From Taiwanofungus camphoratus (taxonomy: Eukaryota > Basidiomycota > Agaricomycetes > Polyporales > Taiwanofungaceae), in assembly GCA_003999685.1 (NCBI GenBank), contig CP021221.1:1550001-1614000 (forward strand): DNA of 64,000 nt. Reading direction: 5' to 3'. Within the stretch, counting starts at the first letter, position 1. The number at the start of each line of letters is the position of its first letter. This document shows positions 942 to 56,028 of the stretch, piece after piece. The translations under genes and the position numbers were made by a program. The notes below the pieces were generated by a model, which searched no databases, was not told the DNA's origin, and was given only the letters and a program-made list of their open reading frames with translations.

Positions 942-3166
942 TGATAGTACTAGCTGCTATGATTTGCTGTCGGTGGTATGACCGTTAGTCTCTGGACTTG
1001 TCGTTATAGGGAAATGCCTATATCCCTCATACTTGGTGGGTATCATACATGCGCTCGAACTACGATGCTGGATGACAAACCCCAACTTCGTGTGCACCAC
1101 ATGAGCTATATATTCTCTTAGTCATCACCGAAGAACGCAGCAGCGAACGTCCTCAATGTGCGATGAAAAAAGTGTATAGAATGCACTGAGGGCTAAGAAA
1201 ACAATCATCGTCCCCGTAGAATTGTTGATCAACCGTTTGAATCAGGCTGTCTATCTCAGGCTTGACGGCTGCAACATCGATCGGCGTCGTGAAAGGGAGC
1301 ACCCTAAGGCATTGACAGTCTCTAACGATAGTGCATTTAGGTCAAGTCGCACGCATCTGGCGAGACTTCTCTTTATAATCGATAGCCAGTGATCTGGTAA
1401 GGGTTGCACCTTCTTCAGTGTGAGTGTATTATCCGCTCCAAGGACCGTGCAGTCCTGCAATCTCCATAAAATAGGTATCATTTTAGTGCACTGTATGTTG
1501 GAAGACAACCAGAGTTTTCGAAGAATATTACAAACGGTGTTGATACGCACAGTGAGCGCTGCTTCTGCTAATGCGAAGAGCGGAGTGAAAATGCGAATTT
1601 GTAGCACAAGTTAGCCGTCTATGTACAGAGTTGCCAATGACCCTGAAGACCAAAACGGCGAGTTCGTGCGCAGCCCCAAATTGAACACTTGCACCTAAAC
1701 CGACACCTGCAGAGCGTGCGACTAAGAGGTACCCCTCACCTATAGGATATGTAAGATATTGGCTACTCCAGCGATTAAAATACCATCAACATGTCTAGTT
1801 TGATATGAAGAAGCCCAAATTCTTACACTAGAGAAGCTCTCAGACAGTGCGGCAGTAGTCCCAGATGCACCACTCACACAGGGTAGAAAACACGATTACT
1901 TCACTAAGCCTTAATCGAACACGTCGCCACAACATAATTAATTTGATGCTACTAAGCATCTGTAAGAGGGTATGATGTATCCAACAATTGATGGATGACC
2001 CTCGCTTCCTAGCAACGCCGCAGGATATCGATACAACCCACGAGTCTCGCCCTCGTCACTCGTAAGGTAAACCTACCAAAGATCTGATATCTTGATATTG
2101 GCGCCATTTTCCCTCGGCGCCCCTGTAACGCCAGATCGAGAAGAAAGTATACATCCATGCACGAAGTAAAGGGTGCTCCAGGTATCCCTACGTAAACTGA
2201 ACAAGGCAAGTAAGAACAAGCAAGGCGAAGATGAGAACTCTGAGCCTGCGACATAAGCGCCATCTAGAGCTGAATGTCGTATCCCTAAACTGATGCGAAA
2301 CCTGGAGAAGAGTAGGGATGGGATTGGAGAATACATTACACGATAGGCCTATAAGCTTTCAGGGTCTGCTTGGAAACTTCATGGATGTATTCTGCGACGA
2401 CCTCCCCGATAATGACATACAGTAATTCCCACGGGAAGCACTGCAGTCCGTCGGTGATGATCCGGGGACTCTTCGCAGTTTGTGGTCAGTACATAGAAAT
2501 TTATGGAGGATAAGAAAACAAGAATCGTTACACTGTAAGTGCAACAAAGACAAAATTTGCTGACGCTAATCAGCCGTTGCAATCGCTCCATGTAAGTGAA
2601 ATCGTGGACTAGGCGTGTTGCTCACTACAGCAGGGCCTTCCGCGATAAAATTTGTTGGTATTGAGGTCGTATACGCTTCCATAGCAATGATATATTGCTC
2701 GAATGTAGCCCCCAAGAGTATCAGTAGTTGGTAGATGCAATCACAAGCGTGAACCGGGAGCACATCCAGTCCACTGGTTTCGCTTCTGTATAAGCCGCCC
2801 ATGGGACTTGGGTATTGGCAGCATGTATTGAATGGCCAGCCTGAGTATCAATCGTGTACCAGTCAATAATTACCGCTGTGGGTGGATATGGCAGCCTAAT
2901 GTTGCTAATTACAGGGTAGCAGAGTCAAAATAAGCGCCTGTTGCAGGTCCCCAAGATCGCAGGCGCTCTGGCTTCTTTGCAACCCCTTACGACTGCTACG
3001 AGCGACACGGTGCTGTTAGCTTTCAAGCACAAAATTGCTTTTAACAAAGTCCCAAGTTCAAAGAATGGCATATGTCTCGATAGAGTCTGACGATGTGAGC
3101 TTCTTTTAAGGTCCTAAGCTACAATATGTCCTCATGGTATTAATGGCAGTCTTGCCCTCTTAGCGG
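942..3166. other. 2.2 kb without a recognisable gene
   Basis: Only short open frames occur here, none over 120 codons. None gives a family motif, and I could not chain neighbouring frames by splice sites as I could for the flanking genes. No terminal repeats or RNA gene were noticed. It may hold the TRIP13 3' UTR, the promoter of the Yip1 gene at its right end, and decayed sequence. Confidence 0.5.
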
Positions 3167-4353
3167 ATGGAAGAAGGACCTGAAGGTCTCCAGTTCCAAT
3201 GTGCGCTCGAATGCTCTCTTAACCTTAGATGGACGGAAGTCCTCAAACACTTCCTCTGTGTCTTCCCCAGCGTTTCTAGAAACTGATGCTCGTGCTGCTG
3301 ATCAGAATGGAAGGAACAATGCTGCGCGAGGTATGTTATGTATATTGCTCTGTGCGAGTGTACTGAAGTACACGCTGCAACGTGTGTATGTGTGCGTTGA
3401 CTGGCATCTTACACTAACTTCTGTGTCTTGCGCGCTTCGAACAGGCTATATCCCAGACCGTGGTGCAGGGCGCGTCAGCCCTTACGGACTCTGGACGCTT
3501 GATTACTTCCAACCTTACTTCGATGTTGACACCAAAACCGTAAGCCACCGTGTCTCAGACTGCCATTTGTTCTTCCTACCACTGATGGCCGCACGATTGT
3601 TCTCAGGTAATCCGCCGCTGCTATCTCACCCTCTTCCCGCCTGCAGCCTCTTCCTACTTGCACACGCATTTAACGCCTGCCGCTGATATGTACGGGCCTT
3701 TTTGGACGCTCACCACACTCATCTTTGCTCTCTGTGTTTGCTCCTCTCTTTCTTCTGCTGTCGCTACGTACCTTTCACATCCCGACGCTGCCGCGGAGGT
3801 TGCATACGACTTCCGGCTGTTCTCGACGGCCGTGGGACTGGTGTATGCCTATGGGCTTGGCGTTCCGGTGTTACTGTGGTTTGCACTTAGATATCTTGGT
3901 GTGGGTGAATGGAGTGTGGTTGAAGCGATGGCGGTGTGGGGATATGGTCAATTCGTATGGATCCCAGTGGCGGTAAGTTATGCTATGTTTGCTCTGAGTA
4001 TGTGTCTAACGAGACGATGTATAGCTTCTATGTGTGATCCCAGTCCCGCTATTGCGCTGGATCTTGGTTGGTCTCGCATTTCTTCTGTCGGGATTTTTCC
4101 TTGTAGCAAATGTGTACCCGATACTTGCTTCGGTAAGTGTGCCCATTCTTCGCATGTTGCCTAGGTTTGATTCTTTGTCACTACCCGACATGTTTGACAG
4201 GCCGACGCGAAAGCAGTCCGACTCATCATCATTCTCCTCGTTGCTTTGCATGCGGCCCTTGCGCTAAGCTTCAAAGTCCTTTTCTTCGATTACTACGTGG
4301 TGAAGGAAATTGGTCCTCAGGATCCAGTGCCGGGTTTTACTACTTTGTCTTGA
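3167..4353 (+). CDS. Yip1-domain Golgi membrane protein (YIPF1/YIPF2 type)
   Basis: Yip1-family proteins are five-span membrane proteins of the Golgi and ER that bind Rab GTPases. The soluble N-terminus is Ser-rich and leads into SPYGLWTLDYFQPYFDVDT, a hallmark of the YIPF1/2 branch. Then come DMYGPFWTLTTLIFALCV and several hydrophobic spans, ending FFDYYVVKEIGPQDPVPG before the stop at 4351-4353. Introns are seen at about 3332-3444, 3973-4024 and 4132-4200. The start is my choice: ATG 3167 gives MEEGPEGLQFQ, which resembles the N-terminus of family members, but it joins the main frame only if 3201-3228 is a 28-nt intron. Otherwise the first exon lies further upstream. The stop of the downstream rhomboid gene faces it tail to tail. 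Confidence 0.85.
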
Positions 4354-44809: not shown

Positions 44810-45119
44810 TTTTTTTTTTTTTTAATTCCTCAAGTTTATACTCCATACGACGTAGGTACATGTAGAGTAATAATGATAATGAGTGGGCATCCGCGCCCGC
44901 ATGAGCGGCACACCTACAGGTTTCAGTGGCCTCGTTATGTGGCGTGGGCATATAATCCAGTTAGGCCTGCAAAAAGAAAGATATAGTCATCCATAGGACG
45001 CCATACCTAACCCCCGCCCGACCCACTTTTTCACGCTCTATGTGTTTACCCGGCCCGGTCATCCCGTTCCGTCAGTAAATCACCTAGGGAACTGAGTCTA
45101 GCCCTACAGGTTTCGGGCC

Positions 45120-45893
45120 TCAGTTATCATTTGGGTATACGGGGGGGTCGTCGCGGATACTGGGTTCCGCTATCCCCTCGTCTATCCAATTATGGTACAT
45201 TTCAAATGCCTTTGCTTCAGCGTCATACCACTCACAGAAATCCCGGTATTTTCCACCCAGGGCGGTGGTCATACCAGGATCTAGATGTTGGTCCGCATGG
45301 AACTGCTGCCAGGCCGCTTGTCTTCCGACAGTGTGGCACATAAGACGGGCACGAGTGAATGTTCTCGTGCGCGCAGCTTCAGCTTCAAGCAGAGATTCTG
45401 CCAGAATCTCCGCCCAATCAAAGGTGGAGACCATCGGGTTGAGCCGAAGGAACTCCATAATGTCATCCGGGGTCCAACCCCTTTGTTCAGGGGGCCCCAT
45501 CAGAAGCGGATCACGAGGACCCTGTTGGCACTTCGTCCTGATCCAGAATGGACAGTTGAAGAGCACATGTTCCCTGGTTTCCTCCGCTCCGCACAAACAG
45601 AGGTGAGGGCCAGAGATATTGAACCTAGAGCGGTATTCACCGCCTGGGAAATGGTTGGTGAGCACACGACATACGCGTGCTACCTCCTTATTGGACTTGC
45701 CAGCTGCCTTTAAGACCCACGTGCCCTTGTCCGTAGTTCCGTGCAGCGGTAGGGCGTCCTCAGTTACTTTCCATAACCTTCGGCCGCGATAGCTAGGGTT
45801 ATCGACTAGCGTCCCCCAGCGCTTTTTGACCCTTGCCTTGACACGAGCAAGGGCCATTGATTGTGAGATGAATTCCGGTTGGGGGTCATCCAA
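45120..45893 (-). CDS. LINE C-terminal region with Cys/His motif
   Basis: This continues the LINE frame past an in-frame TGA. It begins just after FWVPSHKGIFQNEFVDELAK, which carries the last RNase H residues (His and Asp). It then has a Trp/Arg-rich part and CLCGAEETREHVLFNC, the C-x-C-x6-H-x4-C motif found at the C-terminus of many LINE proteins and thought to bind nucleic acid. It ends VYPNDN at 45120-45122. It is not a separate gene. Confidence 0.8.
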   Translation of the reverse strand: MDDPQPEFISQSMALARVKARVKKRWGTLVDNPSYRGRRLWKVTEDALPLHGTTDKGTWVLKAAGKSNKEVARVCRVLTNHFPGGEYRSRFNISGPHLCLCGAEETREHVLFNCPFWIRTKCQQGPRDPLLMGPPEQRGWTPDDIMEFLRLNPMVSTFDWAEILAESLLEAEAARTRTFTRARLMCHTVGRQAAWQQFHADQHLDPGMTTALGGKYRDFCEWYDAEAKAFEMYHNWIDEGIAEPSIRDDPPVYPNDN

Positions 45894-45971
45894 TGCCTTC
45901 TTCGCGAGTTCGTCAACGAACTCATTCTGAAAAATGCCTTTATGGGATGGGACCCAAAAAAGGACAATACG

Positions 45972-47320
45972 TCAGCGTTCATCTGCATCGAGGAACGCTT
46001 GTACGTGTTGAGAAGCCATGACCGCCGCCATCTGCGACGGTCCGACTTCCGACTTGAAAATTTGGTCGAGTGCCGATTGGTTATCGGAACAGACTATAAG
46101 AGTGGTGATGTGGGCAGGGACGTCACGGACCGCTTCACGCAGCCCGCGCGCCAATGCCAGCATCTCCACATCAAAGCTCTGGACCTTGCCGGCCCCGAAC
46201 CTCCCATGGGCAACGTGATCTTCCCCGTCAATGACGAGCCACGCGCTCCCAGATCTCACTTGTGGCGCATTTGCATACGATCCATCAGTGAATAGCATTC
46301 GCCCTTCTGGCTGGGCCAACTGGCACCGGAATTCCGGCCACCAGGTGAACTCCAACCAGTCGGCAAATTCTGGTGAGCTTTTGTTTGGACCTTTTCCGTC
46401 CAGGAACACCCGCTCGAAGTGATCAATGTACCGATCCACGACCCGATCACCGGACCGCGCCTCCAGGTGGAGGGGTGCAAAGTCTTCTGATGACTGCCGC
46501 CCGATGCAATCTATGAACGTCATGGGGGTGACAGCCTGTTTTCTGCCACGGCGCGAGTTAAGCGGCCATGGCGCAGTGATATTGGTGACGTTAGTCGCCC
46601 AATAAGGTGGGAGAGCGGCCCTCAACGGGTGCCCTTCATGAACTTGCCGCACTCGAAGCGCAGCTTTCTCCATGTATCGGTCGATCTGGATACGGATGGG
46701 GACCAACCCACCCAACATCTCCATCGCCCCGATCAGTGTGGTCTTGAAACAGCCGGTGATCCACCTAGCTGCTCTCGACTGAGCGGTCTGCAATTCTTTT
46801 GCAGCCCATTTGAGGCCCTTCCACTGTGGGTTCCACCACAGTTGAGCGCCATATAACATCAACGGAACGACGTGCGCTATATAGAGCCGCCGTTTGTTGA
46901 TGGGATGGAATCCGCGTGCCGAATTGCCGAGCATGCGAAGTGCATTGCACGTGCTGGCCACCTTGTTGGCGTAAAACCGCACGTGTGCATGGAAGCTAAG
47001 CTTGGGGTCTAAAAAGAACCCAAGGTAGCGCATCGTGTCCTTTGCTCGCAAAGTGACATCATGTCCATCAGTCCGGATGGTTAGATCTGGTCCAAGTGGT
47101 CGGGAAGTTGAATACCCTTTCTGGCGCTTCCAAAAGTGCATCAACTCCAACTTGTCTCCTTCGACGCCTAAACCTAAACGGTTCAGATCGCCAATGAGAT
47201 CATGGAAAACATCCGCCAAAATGGCGTTGTTCTTCAAAACAAGGGCTTGCGGGCTGTCGTCAACAGCCTTCGGCGAAGCTGCCATGATGAGACCGTCGTC
47301 CACATAGAACTGAGTCCCGG
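45972..47320 (-). CDS. LINE reverse transcriptase (YVDD box) and RNase H
   Basis: Just inside the border of the left nested element the frame reads GTQFYVDDGLIMAA, the RT catalytic YVDD box. Then come the thumb (LGLGVEGDKLELMHFWKR, MRYLGFFLDPKLSFHAHV) and RNase H: LFTDGSYA (first Asp), DVEMLALARGL (Glu) and LIVCSDNQSALDQIF (Asp). The frame ends at TGA 45972-45974, with the rest of RNase H continuing beyond in the same frame. Upstream RT parts lie across the nested insertions. Confidence 0.85.
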
Positions 47321-49015
47321 TGATGAGTCCCATAGCCTCCTGGGCCCCGAATCGCGATTTTAGGAGCTTTCTAATCCCCCAACCGACCACTCTAAGACTC
47401 TCCTACAGCCTACGACAGGAGGGATAGGTTCCTATAATATTCCTAACGCCCCCTCTCCTTCCTAAACCCTCCTAACACCCTACGAAGTCTTGCGAAGTCA
47501 CATGAGGTGCTACGAGATTTCGAATGCTAGACGCGAAGTCTCTAACTCCTGCTAAGTCCACTATCGGACACTGCCGGCCCTCCCATACTGTTCCATTGGA
47601 TCTAGGTCCTATCTACTACGTCACTCATCCCGGACTTAGCTAAGAAGTCTTAGCTAAGTCTCTCCTAGCTCTTGTGATTGCAGCTACCTCCGATAGGCTC
47701 CGAAACGGTCCGAAGTTCTGGAAGTTGGACTTAGGAAGCCTTGTGCACCCCCATGGGTCTCGATCCTATGCCATAAGGTCATCCTAGGGCGTACCCATAT
47801 GACCCTCCACCCATTTAGGACACCTCCTGCCCCGATTAGACCAAGTCCCGCTGCTAAGGACTTCGTGCGCTCTTAGCCCACTAAGATAGGTGATCACGGC
47901 GCATGGCTGCTCTCGGATAGTCATCCCGCCCTCGTGAATGAACTTGGTCACCTTTCTACCGTACGTAGTTCCCCTGTTTCAGTTCCTAATTAGTTCCTAT
48001 CCTCCTCGTGTTCACTTCGGAGTCCATGCGCTTTAGTACACATTTCGGACTCGTAAGGATCGCTTCGCGCAAGATTAGTTCACCTCACGTTCCCCTATTT
48101 AGTCAGAGGTAGTTTACTATGTACAAGAGAGACCCCTCCGTGCACGCTTCTCTCTTTGGAATACCAGTTCCCCTGTAGCTCCGATCTCAGGAAAGCGCCG
48201 TGAGTACAACCTTAGGAACGGTCCCAAGGTCCCTAAGTCTCCACCCCAGCTCCGTTTCAGTACCTTTGAACTACGTCTACGCTCACGATATATCTACGAA
48301 CCACGTCTACGATTCCCGAACTACGCACTACGATCTACGAAGTCGCCGTGACTTTGTGCCCTTCAGCACCTCTTATAGCACCTATCCGGTGGGCCTCCGC
48401 CTTAGTTATACCCTTAGGCTCACGTTGCGTCATCCCTACGTCCTACGAATAACCCTACGACTCCCCCATAGCCTTCATTACAGGCTATAGTACATCTCTC
48501 TACGCCCTCGAACTCTCCGACCCACACCTCGACGTCATCAGACACTTCAGAGCTTCCAGCAACCTCGTTCCCTCATTTCTATTAAGTATTAGCTCTCCGA
48601 ACCATCCGACCTCTCCTACAAGTCTCCTACGCTAGCCAAACCTCGCCTGCCTCGCTCTAACAAACCTCTAAGCCTTACGCCCTTTAGCTAACTCTAGCTA
48701 AAAGGACTTCGCAGCATCTACGAAGTCAGCTCACGCGATTTAGCTAAAACTTCGAAGGACTTCGCAAAACTTCGAAGAACTTCGCGTACTTCGGAGGGCC
48801 TCGCAAGGCCTTAGGGATAGTATAGCACTTAGGAACAAGATCCTGTTGTGCAGGACCCTTGACCCCTTACTCCCCTACTTACAAAAACAAGACATACAGG
48901 TTTCCCGGTATCATACAGGTTGTAGCTCCTACCCTCACACCCTCACAGTTATCACACTACCCCCAGCCACGTTGCGGAGCACTCCCTAGGTACCAGGGTC
49001 CCCTAGGTCGTATCA
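47321..49015 (-). mobile_element. Nested 1.7 kb element, left copy; solo-LTR-like, unclassified
   Basis: This copy separates the LINE's RT centre from its YVDD box. Read on the minus strand it begins TGATACGACC and ends GGACTCATCA, so it has TG...CA ends as LTRs do. It is flanked by CCGG(T) at 47317-47321 and 49016-49020, a likely target duplication. The interior is full of short GAAGTC/CTTCG-type repeats and has no coding domain I recognise. A solo LTR is my best guess, but 1.7 kb is long for one. It is younger than the LINE it interrupts. The inverted partner lies at 49445-51208. Confidence 0.6.
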
Positions 49016-49444
49016 CCGGTTCGGCCCGGTTGTACCAAATGGACTGGCGCCCACTTGTGTATGACCGGTGCAATGTAGACCCCAGATAAAATCGGGGATA
49101 AACTTGATCCTTGACCGACTCCGACATCAAAGTCAGATGGATCAGTCAATGTACCATTGAACAGGAATCGGGTTTTTCGCCCGATCAAGTAATTTGCCAT
49201 GAAATTACAGAGCTTGCTATTGAAGCCCTGCTTTCGCATGATTCCTACCAGCGCATCATGGTTGATGGACGGGTAGAACTGTGACACATCGAGCAATAGC
49301 ACCGATGGGATAAGGTTGCACGCCCATGCCTCTTTGACATTGTGCACTAGTTGAATACCAGCATCAGTGGTGCTATGCTGCATAGCCCCACCGAACTGGC
49401 ATGGGTGTAGGATTCCCCACTTCTGGGCATCCCACTGCATTTGT
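49016..49444 (-). CDS. LINE reverse transcriptase centre, stranded between two insertions
   Basis: On the minus strand this 429-bp piece reads GILHPCQFGGAMQHSTTDAG, SVLLLDVSQFYPSINHDALV (RT motif A with catalytic Asp) and FDVGVGQGSSLSPILSGVYI (motif B). It is in the same orientation as the rest of the LINE and forms the loop of the palindrome. Its ends abut the nested elements directly. Confidence 0.85.
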
Positions 49445-51208
49445 TGATACGACCTAGGGGACCCTGGTACCTAGGGAGTGCTCCGCAACGTGGCTGTGGG
49501 GTAGTGTGATAACTGTGAGGATATGAGGGTAGGAGCTACAACCTGTACGATACCGGGAAACCTGTATGTCTTGTTTTTGTAAGTGGGGGAGTAAGGGGTC
49601 AAGGGTCCTGCACAACAGGATCTTGTTCCTAAGTGCTATACAATCCCTAAGGCCTTGCGAGGCCCTCCGAAGTACGCGAAGTCCTTCGAGATTCCGCGAA
49701 GTCCTTCGAAGTTTTAGCTAAATCGCGCGAGCTGACTTCGTAGGCTGTATAGAGTTAGGGAGCAATAAGCCAATGGACTATAATTTCTACTAAGCAGCAG
49801 AGGGTACGAGACTGCTGCGAAGTCCTTTTAGCTAGAGTTAGCTAAAGGGCGTAAGGCTTAGAGGTTTGTTAGAGCGAGGCAGGCGAGGTTTGGCTAGCGT
49901 AGGAGACTTGTAGGAGAGGTCGGATGGTTCGGAGAGCTAATACTTAATAGAAATGAGGGAACGAGGTTGCTGGAAGCTCTGAAGTGTCTGATGACGTCGA
50001 GGTGTGGGTCGGAGAGTTCGAGGGCGTAGAGAGATGTACTATAGCCTGTAATGAAGGCTATGGGGGAGTCGTAGGGTTATTCGTAGGACGTAGGGATGAC
50101 GCAACGTGAGCCTAAGGGTATAACTAAGGCGGAGGCCCACCGGATAGGTGCTATAAGAGGTGCTGAAGGGCACAAAGTCACGGCGACTTCGTAGATCGTA
50201 GTGCGTAGTTCGGGAATCGTAGACGTGGTTCGTAGATATATCGTGAGCGTAGACGTAGTTCAAAGGTACTGAAACGGAGCTGGGGTGGAGACTTAGGGAC
50301 CTTGGGACCGTTCCTAAGGTTGTACTCACGGCGCTTTCCTGAGATCGGAGCTACAGGGGAACTGGTATTCCAAAGAGAGAAGCGTGCACGGAGGGGTCTC
50401 TCTTGTACATAGTAAACTACCTCTGACTAAATAGGGGAACGTGAGGTGAACTAATCTTGCGCGAAGCGATCCTTACGAGTCCGAAATGTGTACTAAAGCG
50501 CATGGACTCCGAAGTGAACACGAGGAGGATAGGAACTAATTAGGAACTGAAACAGGGGAACTACGTACGGTAGAAAGGTGACCAAGTTCATTCACGAGGG
50601 CGGGATGACTATCCGAGAGCAGCCATGCGCCGTGATCACCTATCTTAGTGGGCTAAGAGCGCACGAAGTCCTTAGCAGCGGGACTTGGTCTAATCGGGGC
50701 AGGAGGTGTCCTAAATGGGTGGAGGGTCATATGGGTACGCCCTAGGATGACCTTATGGCATAGGATCGAGACCCATGGGGGTGCACAAGGCTTCCTAAGT
50801 CCAACTTCCAGAACTTCGGACCGTTTCGGAGCCTATCGGAGGTAGCTGCAATCACAAGAGCTAGGAGAGACTTAGCTAAGACTTCTTAGCTAAGTCCGGG
50901 ATGAGTGACGTAGTAGATAGGACCTAGATCCAATGGAACAGTATGGGAGGGCCGGCAGTGTCCGATAGTGGACTTAGCAGGAGTTAGAGACTTCGCGTCT
51001 AGCATTCAAAATCTCGTAGCACCTCATGTGACTTCGCAAGACTTCGTAGGGTGTTAGGAGGGTTTAGGAAGGAGAGGGGGCGTTAGGAATATTATAGGAA
51101 CCTATCCCTCCTGTCGTAGGCTGTAGGAGAGTCTTAGAGTGGTCGGTTGGGGGATTAGAAAGCTCCTAAAATCGCGATTCGGGGCCCAGGAGGCTACAGG
51201 ACTCATCA
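49445..51208 (+). mobile_element. Nested 1.7 kb element, right copy, inverted
   Basis: This is the inverted twin of 47321-49015, from TGATACGACC to GGACTCATCA on the plus strand. Long stretches are identical, including a 291-bp frame found in both (48200-48490 and 50039-50329). It is about 69 bp longer than the left copy because of extra sequence near 49742-49812. I see no clear target duplication at its borders (TTTGT on one side, TCGTT on the other). It interrupts the LINE between its first RT part and motif A. Confidence 0.6.
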
Positions 51209-53557
51209 TCGTTTGGCAATGATCTTTTTGAACAATTTGCCAAAGCAATTGAGCAAGCAGATAGGCCTGTAGGCCTTCGCTAGCGTATAGTCCGGTTTGT
51301 TCGGTTTGGGTAAAACCACCGTGACAGACCGCTTGAAGATGCTCAGATAAACCTTGAAATCGAGGCAAGCATTATAATACGCGCGCAGCCATTGCCGCAC
51401 GTGTATACCGAGATCGGTCTCGATGCCCTCCTCAGAGCGCTCGATCCGGTCCACCATCCAATTTATCCACATCCAGTTCACGTGATCAGGACCGGGTGCA
51501 GACGTATTGCTAGTGGATTTGAGATTCTCGCGAATCTCAAACTCACTAATGTCTGGTAAAGTCAACTCCTCCCTTTGAGGAATTTCGTCCACAAATGACA
51601 GATCCACCGGCCGTGGGTTGGCAGGCGTGAACTGAGCTTGGAAGGCACGACTGAGATCAGCCGCACTTTGGACTGGCGCACCGTCAGCTTGCCGCAGCTG
51701 AATAGTGGCCTCTTGTCGTCTCGGCTTTGTCCAGGCGACAAAATCCGAGATTAGTTGGGGATTGGATTCATCCATGATCCGATCAAAGTGTGCGCGCTTC
51801 GCCCGCTTCGTGGCAAGGCGGAGTGTTGCACGTTGTTTATGCCGTTCGGACCGGAGTTCGGCGGCAACATCATATGCGTCTGCAGTGGCCTGAGCGCCAG
51901 GTCCCAACTGATGATGTAGGTAGCGATACTGCCCAGACGCTGCACTAAGGCGGTGCTGGGTGTTCGCCAGTTTAGTGGCCGCACGGGAGCATGCAGCATC
52001 CCACCACGACTTTGAGCGTTTGGATGGGCGTTTTACTGACGAAAACTCCATCCATAATCGTTGGAGGTCTCGCTCGAGGCGGTCCCCCATTCTTTCAACG
52101 CCTTGGGCGCTGCTGAAGTGTGTAGGGTAATCGGCAAACAATTTCGCCGTTGCTGTCACGAATAGTTGGGCCGCGTCGCCGGTACGAGGAATACCCCGCA
52201 CCGGTTCTGGCTCAACCTCAATCGGCATCTCCCACCGCAGGACCGCATGGTCGCTATTGTGGCGATGTGACATGAGTACCTGAAGGTTTTGGCCTTCATA
52301 GTACACTGGGTCGATCCACACCAAGTCTATGACTCCAGGCGTAAGAGCGATGTTGTGGGAACGCCAGGTGACTGGACCGTCCTGGGCGTTCATCAAGACC
52401 AAATCGAGTTCGGCCTGGGCCAACTCAATAAGGCAATTAGAATCGGCGTAGTGCGGAGGCCGCACCTGAGATCTCGCAGCTCGTGTATCTCATAATGGGT
52501 GGCGGAGATTGAAATCCCCACACATACACGCAATGGGTGGAAGCGCGTGTACACGTGTTTCCAAATATCGGACAGCATCAAAAGTGTTGCTGTCGTTGTA
52601 CACGTTCAGGACATTAAAGTCTCCGGACGGAAGCTTGAGCGCTACCATAAGGCAATCCTTATGGGAGACGCTGTGAGTTACAACTTGTGGAGAGGCCGAA
52701 GCCCACCGCTTGTTGACATACACAGCGACCCGGGAATCTTTCGATGCCCCGAGGCACTTGAACGAGGCATGGGCAGACGTATTCTCATACGCTTCCCCGT
52801 CCCGTGACTTAGCGGAGGCCACATTCTTGATGCGGCCCCAGAATATCTCTTGAACACAGACAATGTCGGTGTCCCTATATCTCTCAAGTAGAATGCTCAT
52901 ATTCTCCGCAGATTTCTGAACATTCACACTTATGCATGTGAGTACGGGCCTAGTAGGTTCGTCTCTCAGATTGTCGCCCTCAGTCGCAGGACTGGGCGTA
53001 CGGGAGGGGTCCGCTTCCACTACCATGGGGGAGCCGGGCCGTTCATTGGGTTGTAAAGCCGGCGGAGTTCCAAACGGTGGGGCCGAAGCACCGTCAGAAG
53101 AGTCCGGTTCACACACTGACTCACTAAGCCCATAAGGGTTTATTGGCTCTAGTCCCGAACTGGTGTGCCATGCACTTCCAGCGTGGGCAGGGGGCATGGA
53201 GACAGCAAGGCTGTCTTCAATGCCATCGTATTCGTTGCCCCCTCCCTGAGAGAAAGAGGGCCTACTGTGAATCCTTTGCGAATCGTCTAGCACAATGGCC
53301 GTCAATTCTAAGAGAGGACCTCCCGAGAAGGAGGAACTCGAAGTGGATCTCTCCCCATGATAGGGTGAGATCAAAGGTGTGTCCAGAGGACGAGAGCTTG
53401 GGTGGTCCGAGTCGGCTTGAGTGCGATGAGCAGGGCAGCCGCCATGCACCGACATCGCACTCGACAAGGTGGGTGCACCATCAGTCCTAAGACCAACAGC
53501 GGCTATAGGGGCACCAGTATGGGGGGAAAAGGGAAGGGAGCGATGGGATTTAGACAT
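51209..53557 (-). CDS. LINE endonuclease and start of reverse transcriptase
   Basis: From ATG 53557 the frame has a Ser/Pro-rich head of about 210 residues, then the APE-type endonuclease: TCISVNVQKSAENMSILLER, DIVCVQEIFWG (catalytic Glu), and CMCGDFNLRHPL (Asp/Asn). An in-frame TGA follows at about 52490-52492. The same frame goes on with IDLVWIDPVYYEGQNLQ, NSDHAVLRWEM (SDH motif of the endonuclease), a basic linker and the RT fingers (LPKPNKPDYTLAKAYRPICL). It stops where the right nested element begins. Confidence 0.85.
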
Positions 53558-53611
53558 GCTGGGCACGGGCGCTAAATCGAGATGGTGGTGGTACTGGTTC
53601 AAGAAGCGGCG

Positions 53612-53625
53612 AGACTCCTTCCATT
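53612..53625. repeat. Target-site duplication of the LINE, right copy
   Basis: AGACTCCTTCCATT, identical to 44796-44809. It marks the 5' end of the LINE at 53611 and leaves a leader of about 54 nt before ATG 53557. Confidence 0.85.
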
Positions 53626-54483
53626 GACCCCGCGATATCCACGTCATGCGACCCACTCTGGGAAATCAGGAAGCTGCAAAAGACTGCCAAGAGGCGTGCA
53701 CCGACGGACCCGGGCAACAGAAAGCCTAGAATAAGTTTTCGCCTTGGTTCTACCATGACGCCTGCGACTTGCAAGCGTATGCTAAGGGCGGGTAGATTCT
53801 GCCAGATATTGATGTATCAAAGAGTGCATCAAAGGACTCGTACTACGCATCATTGCTAGGAAATGCCAGTGGATGCCGGATGCCGGATGCAGAGCCACGT
53901 GGTACATCGCGTAAGCCTGACCCGCATGCACCATACGGTGCTTCGATTGTGGCTGTGCTTCTCAATGTTCAACACAAATGTAATTCGTCTAGAGTGTCGA
54001 AATAACTGATCATCCTCGGTGGCCTGTATGGCAAACATCGCGATTGTTCACTTGGAGCGAATCCCGTAGGCCAAATATCCGTAGCATGCTTTCGGCGCGT
54101 CACTCACTAAAGACGCGGTTTAGACTTCCAAGTCTCCACCGGCGGGAGAGCTCATCTTGGTGATCGAGTAGTCGCTGTGGTGGTGGTTCGGATCATAATC
54201 GCGCTGCTCGTGCTGCAGTATTGCTATGGAGATAACGAGTTGAAGTTGTCGCCTCACCTCCAGCTTCCAAGCATGACACGCATGGATATGACCTTCGAAT
54301 GTGCGTCAATCTCAGGGGTCTTGCATCCCTTCCACATTACGCGCGTGGGCGCCCTGGACAAGCATGTGGGTTCTCCGTACACATCCTCTATAAAGGTGGA
54401 TTCGCCTAGTCGAGGATGGCCATCAGGTCCTCCCCTGTTCCCAACCACTTGGTTTTTTGGCCTATTCTGTCTCGGCGTTCGAT
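53626..54483. promoter_or_regulatory. Promoter region of the aspartic protease gene
   Basis: Before the LINE arrived, this stretch was joined to the sequence left of 44796. It has TATAAA at 54389-54394, 90 bp before the protease start. GGATGCCGGATGCCGGATGC near 53874-53890 is a short tandem repeat. No gene was recognised. Confidence 0.55.
54389..54394 (+). promoter_or_regulatory. TATA box of the aspartic protease gene
   Basis: TATAAA lies 90 bp before ATG 54484, a normal distance for fungal genes with a short leader. Confidence 0.6.

Positions 54484-56028
<1,545 letters not shown>

Follow-up and report, generated by a model that had tools for sequence, protein, structure and literature searches.

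Gene conversion between the palindrome arms of primate Y chromosomes was reportedly described by Rozen 2003 and Hallast 2013, the title of the latter being said to name multi-kilobase tracts. The present analysis concerns an inverted repeat at 47321–51208 of a 64-kb stretch of Taiwanofungus camphoratus contig CP021221.1 (the window), where two long terminal repeats (LTRs) of one Ty3/gypsy retrotransposon family interrupt a long interspersed nuclear element (LINE). As on primate Y chromosomes, inverted-repeat arms would here have been copied into each other, but these arms are short and are two separate transposon insertions. Among human LTRs, the part of PMC4921805 used here gives non-allelic gene conversion with maximum tracts of 14–450 bp. 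On that account both cases are ectopic, between LTR copies, but the human tracts are shorter, whereas those proposed here measure about 1.4 kb (the pair in the window, A/B) and about 9.8 kb (a pair on contig C3) and concern inverted neighbours. For nested LTR retrotransposons of plants, the portion of PMC6911290 drawn upon gives 4-bp target site duplications (TSDs) in 11.6% of elements, with palindromic TSD motifs, the 4-bp TSDs apparently being CG-rich in their inner part. As far as that portion goes, LTR elements are nested within other elements in both cases; in plants, however, these are motif tendencies over many families, whereas here a central CG was near-absolute in the tested flanks of a single family. 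None of solo LTRs, nested insertions or gene conversion between LTR copies is new in itself; less usual here are how long the proposed conversion tracts are and how nearly absolute the preference for CG is. A partial literature search (solo LTRs with gene conversion, CG targets, nested gypsy elements) returned no publication tied to this gypsy family, and the article 'LTR Retrotransposons in Fungi' (PMC3248453) contained none of five terms checked in it.

The pair was the sole inverted match among self-BLAST matches longer than 60 bp in the window, and a repeat search of 45000–53500 concurred. It comprised two segments: 47321–48719 against 51208–49809 (99.7% identity over 1400 columns) and 48718–49015 against 49743–49445 (96.0% over 299 columns). 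A match of 1.4 kb between the arms by chance is excluded. The left arm, LTR B (47321–49015, plus strand, 1695 bp), lies antisense to the LINE, while the right arm, LTR A (49445–51208, minus strand, 1764 bp), lies in the sense orientation of the LINE and carries a 69-bp block (49744–49812, minus strand) that is missing from B and was present in 18 of the 23 other distinct LTRs aligned. The loop between them (49016–49444, minus strand, 429 bp) comes from the middle of the LINE reverse transcriptase (RT) and has one TSD copy at either end. A preliminary description of this DNA had given the four arm bounds exactly: they coincide with the terminal bases of both LTRs, and the self-comparison agrees. 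It had also rightly derived the loop from the centre of the RT, where an RVT_1 match (35.2 bits, cut-off 29.6) falls within the open reading frame (ORF) at 49003–49470 (minus strand). It went too far in calling the palindrome perfect, given the additional 69 bp in the right arm and a loop-side 300 bp that is only 96% alike. The inverted copies do sit inside a LINE, as it had said, but the arms are gypsy solo LTRs and not LINE sequence.

The genome searched was the assembly to which the window belongs (33,194,378 bases in 15 contigs, denoted C1, C2 and so on). With the right arm as query, at least 40 places, itself included, matched over query positions 1–1764 or 5–1764 at 97–100% identity, and seven fragments matched besides, among the 40 of 541 candidates scored. 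Allowing up to three mismatches, a pattern of 23 bases taken from the arm end had 496 matches in the genome, and none when read backwards. Copies of the LTR occurred in direct pairs 10,626–10,628 bp apart, for example at C2:687322/697948 and C9:716914/727540. In coding orientation the LTR reads TGATGAGTCC...GGTCGTATCA, with termini TGAT...ATCA on both arms, and it is long, at about 1.6–1.77 kb. In the C2 element, the one copy examined, Pfam placed Asp_protease_2 in a 999-aa ORF1 between the LTRs, and RT_RNaseH_2 and Integrase_H2C2 in the first and second parts of ORF2, the integrase coming last. Compared with solved structures, the RT part matched Ty3 RT/RNase H (E = 2.5e-16), and the integrase part matched PFV integrase (E = 3.7e-16) and Ty3 Gag-Pol (E = 2.2e-05). 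Because direct LTR pairs flank a coding region with these matches, the arms are LTRs of a Ty3/gypsy retrotransposon of about 12.4 kb. RVT_1 and rve were not reported by Pfam in the C2 copy, nor was a chromodomain, the mark of the chromovirus clade, among the hits to that one copy at E up to 0.01. Five proteins had no NCBIfam match above cut-off, and the single arm ORF examined (103 aa) had no match in Pfam. A candidate primer-binding site (TGGAGCCC...) lies 4 nt after the 5' LTR and a candidate polypurine tract, the purine-rich AGGGAGGAGG, directly precedes the 3' LTR; both were read from the flanks.

The family resembles Ty3/gypsy elements (Metaviridae) in its 4-bp TSD, in LTRs that run from TG to CA, and in having protease followed by RT, RNase H and integrase; the candidate polypurine tract and primer-site-like sequence may be a further resemblance. 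Set beside Ty3/gypsy, features that may be particular to it are a long LTR, the near-absolute NCGN TSD and two antisense ORFs. The latter, of 197 and 199 aa (L042:2402–2995 and 2996–3595, minus strand), lie towards the 3' end of the internal region, on the strand opposite to the gypsy genes; one contains a cysteine cluster, and no Pfam match was found for them. At C1:2856909–2858516 (L055) an LTR had element-internal sequence on both sides (primer site and polypurine tract), like a tandem of two elements with a common LTR. A DNA transposon with terminal inverted repeats, which TGAT...ATCA and a 4-bp TSD had brought into consideration, was dropped because direct LTR pairs spaced 10.6 kb apart enclose gypsy coding sequence. 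Nowhere in the window was there a match to the internal part of the C2 element, and A and B are therefore both regarded as solo LTRs.

Each arm carries its own TSD. LTR B is flanked by CCGG at 47317–47320 and 49016–49019, and LTR A by TTGT at 49441–49444 and TCGT at 51209–51212, the two copies differing by one C-to-T change. When the LINE flanks of B were joined, they matched 22 LINE copies without a gap (298–300 bp, 90–96% identical), the empty site reading CCGG in 11, CCTG in 9 and CCAG in 2. The joined flanks of A matched 24 rows, representing 23 distinct copies, again gap-free (197–296 bp, 91–95%), with TCGT in 16 of the 24 rows and 15 of the 23 distinct copies. Since these empty sites are mostly TCGT, the TTGT to the left of A is a decayed TCGT. 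The separate TSDs, together with the presence of both empty sites in other LINE copies, therefore demonstrate two independent integrations rather than an inverted duplication; the palindrome arose from two separate LTR insertions, in opposite orientations, into one LINE. Inverted LINE sequence as the source of the arms was ruled out by BLAST and by the empty sites. Within a set of 31 LTR rows, 16 were rightly cut and had outside sequence on both sides, and of these 13 had an exact 4-bp TSD and three had one with a single C-to-T change; the remaining rows were LTRs of elements, duplicates, and nested or wrongly cut copies. One of these remaining rows, the LTR at C8:1218370, had unmatched flanks (TCGT, CCGG). 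The outer flanks of three full-length elements matched on C2 (CCGG) and C9 (ACGG) but not on C8 (GCGG/TCGT). An inverted arrangement is in itself not rare in this genome: if the 496 LTR ends were placed uniformly, about 0.8 pair in the configuration of A and B would be expected within 430 bp, and the first 100 places with the exact pattern (C1 to part of C4) included 17 neighbouring pairs that were inverted within 6 kb.

The likeness of A and B was mosaic. Across the outer part (A positions 369–1764) they differed at 3 of 1396 sites, where the nearest of the 23 other distinct LTRs differed at 23 and the median was 32. They were also mutual nearest neighbours here against a wider set of 47 other LTRs, sharing four alleles absent from all 47 when aligned. 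This near-identical tract occupies 47321–48716 (plus strand) in B, the putative recipient, and 49813–51208 (minus strand) in A, the putative donor. In the loop-side 299 bp, A and B differed at 11 of 298 sites in addition to the 69-bp block; family medians were 8–9 differences and B was only the 25th-nearest LTR to A, so that loop-side divergence of the pair is the ordinary divergence of the family. For the contrast between the outer and inner parts (3/1396 against 11/298), Fisher's test gave p = 9e-7. Diverged sequence bounds the tract on the loop side only, the other bound being the LTR end. In the outer and the loop-side part alike, the closest LTRs to A were of A's own length type. On its loop side B came closest to an LTR of another length type (2/298; the closest LTR of A's type stood at 4/298, so the hint is weak), although its outer tract is that of A. 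Conversion, if it took place, would probably have run from A to B, to judge by the few copies concerned. The 31-row alignment contained eight duplicates and some ends misplaced by the motif (entries of 1536 and 1607 bp, and a nested entry of 1695 bp); the result for A and B was unchanged when the LTRs were re-extracted by chained BLAST. The earlier suggestion that the arms are kept alike by gene conversion gains support from this mosaic.

We consider the following history probable. Two elements of one Ty3/gypsy family integrated separately into the same copy of the LINE, one at CCGG and the other at TCGT, 429 bp apart and in opposite orientations; each would subsequently have collapsed to a solo LTR through recombination between its own two LTRs. 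Gene conversion between the inverted LTRs would later have overwritten about 1.4 kb of the outer part, B probably being rewritten from A. Because the tract would have halted where the arms differ in length by 69 bp, the 300 bp next to the loop would have kept its own sequence. The layout is ordinary, and it is the near-identity that suggests repeat copies correcting each other.

Other pairs of LTRs were examined for comparable patterns. Of the 17 inverted neighbour pairs listed on C1–C4, all 13 with gaps up to about 3.2 kb were compared, the other four being wider apart; the locus at C3:2038011 (L058), which had no LTR chain longer than 1300 bp, was compared by BLAST only. Four of the 13 were near-identical: A/B, C3:1639772/1642822 (1/1398), C1:2856909/2859057 (3/1309) and C4:1243126/1249766 (100% over 1750 columns). 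The pair at C2:1398492/1401436 was not near-identical (29/1307), yet its loop-side 165 bp were identical. The C3 pair belongs to two inverted, full-length gypsy elements of about 11 kb each (C3:1630501–1653788; L052, L053, L054), separated by a 1353-bp spacer. Arm to arm, the outer 883 positions held 20 substitutions plus a single gap, the next 9.8 kb two differences, and the loop-side 250 four (Fisher p = 3e-20 and 7e-6 for these contrasts). The two LTRs within each C3 element differ in length type (1697 against 1607–1608 bp). The distribution of differences along the two arms leaves little room for explanations other than a long conversion tract or a merging of the arms in the assembly. In the C1 pair all three differences fell within 19 bp; one LTR lay between element sequence and the other was flanked by unmatched ACGG and GCGG. 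Both the C1 and C4 pairs could also be recent sister copies. An apparent element at C8:1192974–1205365 had LTRs that differed from each other at 17 of 1398 sites and unmatched outer flanks (GCGG, TCGT), while one of these LTRs was 2/1399 from the LTR at C8:1216608–1218369, about 22 kb away; these features of C8 point to recombination between elements.

Several observations weigh against the proposed history. Nine of the 13 inverted neighbour pairs on C1–C4 were not homogenised, and six of seven further inverted pairs, from loci retrieved for other purposes (two on C8, near 1.19 Mb and near 1.22 Mb, C8:746786, C2:1460834, C3:2419864 and two on C5), were not near-identical (89–98%). Since most inverted pairs tested were not homogenised, closeness and inversion are not sufficient for homogenisation. 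None of six direct pairs within 5 kb, all separate insertions, was near-identical (closest 14/1309), but six are too few to establish a role for inversion. In the C3 pair, the flanks of the left element do not match (ACGT, CTGT), the right one having ACGC twice. Furthermore, the arms are known here from the assembly alone, and an artefact of assembly or polishing may have homogenised them, both LTRs being real but their outer parts equalised when the reads of one arm were used for both. Near-identical inverted repeats are hard to assemble, and the differences persist precisely near unique sequence, on the loop side of A/B and at both ends of the C3 pair; but many LTRs of the same family were kept apart at 2–3% divergence, the alleles shared by A and B are private rather than those of the family majority, and a tract of 1.4 kb is short relative to long reads, if long reads were used. 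We regard this explanation as unlikely. A similar mosaic could arise without conversion if A and B were sister insertions into one LINE, derived from related RNAs of a single burst, with RT template switching having taken U3 from one RNA and R-U5 from another. The divergent part is indeed the U5 side, adjoining the internal region, where strand transfer could join two RNAs, and in both elements of the C3 pair the LTR at one end is of another length type than that at the other. Yet the closest relatives among the LTRs compared, in a genome with hundreds, would have to land 429 bp apart by chance, and the C3 pair would go unexplained, as its near-identity spans LTR and internal sequence and ends inside the outer LTR. 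Sister insertions carry a similarly small likelihood.

Classical palindrome formation, in which one LTR and its flanking sequence are duplicated in inverted orientation, would account for the high identity of the arms, and may have occurred elsewhere: at C5:43928–49000 (L047), C5:43928–47369 and the copy at C5:47706 are 97.6–99.6% alike, with one LTR split by a nested LTR, and duplication is likely there because the 336-bp spacer is itself palindromic, unlike that of the window's pair. For the present locus it is refuted, since the arms end exactly at the LTR termini, each with a different TSD, and correspond to two separate empty sites in LINE copies. A final explanation is functional: read-through double-stranded RNA (dsRNA) from the palindrome would feed small RNAs directed at the LTR family, rather than the LINE, and the near-identity would be kept for that purpose. 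The inverted arms and short loop suit such a role, and Piwi, RdRP and Dicer_dimer domains were found in the genome, so that processing of a hairpin RNA is possible if the locus is transcribed. However, there are many other inverted LTR pairs, most of which, when tested, were not kept alike, and roughly 500 LTR copies could presumably supply dsRNA in any case; selection for a hairpin is accordingly very improbable. As the stem would consist of LTR sequence, with only the unpaired loop coming from the LINE, any small RNAs from the stem would mainly match, and so address, the LTR family. The idea that they could silence the LINE family does not follow.

Returning to conversion after two insertions, near-identity of inverted arms is no proof of a recent duplication, because two insertions, probably followed by conversion, explain this palindrome. 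Whether the same applies more widely is a tentative matter: where two LTRs of this CpG-targeting gypsy family come to lie head to head, they may serve as a local conversion pair, with tracts of 1.4 to about 10 kb passing between them in LTR and internal parts alike, in which case dating by LTR divergence and the recognition of 'recent palindromes' would be systematically misled in such genomes. If multi-kilobase conversion between inverted LTR neighbours were general, the ages of solo LTRs and LTR pairs in repeat-rich, compact genomes would need correcting.

The target preference of the family was evident from the outside flanks at the U5 end, that is, the TGATACGACC end of the LTR. With A and B left out, 55 of 57 such flanks were NCGN and two were NTGN, while the frequency of CG in the window was 6%; given this proportion, the family appears to integrate almost only at CG. 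The U3-side flanks (39/60 NCGN) were not used as evidence, since the loose end motif also matched the LINE (junctions 51905–51908 and 46288). A near-absolute NCGN target represents a clean and testable integrase specificity. Three LTRs (C3:689533, C4:60095 and C7:590554) occupied the same CCGG, in the same orientation, in three LINE copies (equivalent to window positions 51492–51495), which points either to a hotspot or to descent of these copies from each other. Of nine LTRs close to the LINE loop, eight face it with the same end, a count that was not used as evidence.

Pooling all pairs of 20 LTRs, transitions made up 88% of differences (5434/6182), and 39% (2401/6182) were in CpG/TpG/CpA context. 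DNA methylase domains were found in the genome, and these together with the transition bias are consistent with repeats that are methylated and decaying.

The host LINE extends approximately from 45120 to 53665 on the minus strand and is interrupted by both LTRs. An AP-like endonuclease, RT and RNase H follow one another on a single strand, as in a LINE, two of the three domain scores being just below the Pfam cut-off, and the element may belong to the Tad1/I group. The endonuclease-like ORF (52490–53665) matched Exo_endo_phos at 22.0 bits (cut-off 24.5), and the RNase H-like ORF (45972–47402) matched RVT_3 at 21.3 bits (cut-off 21.6); an RT piece at 51206–52489, additional to that spanning the loop, and a downstream ORF at 45120–45971 had no Pfam match, all four being on the minus strand. 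The loop sequence had at least 40 genomic matches, the window's own included, among the 40 of 91 candidates scored. Adjoining the LINE, and outside the present finding, a eukaryotic aspartyl protease gene (PF00026) lies in pieces at 54591–55748 of the window.

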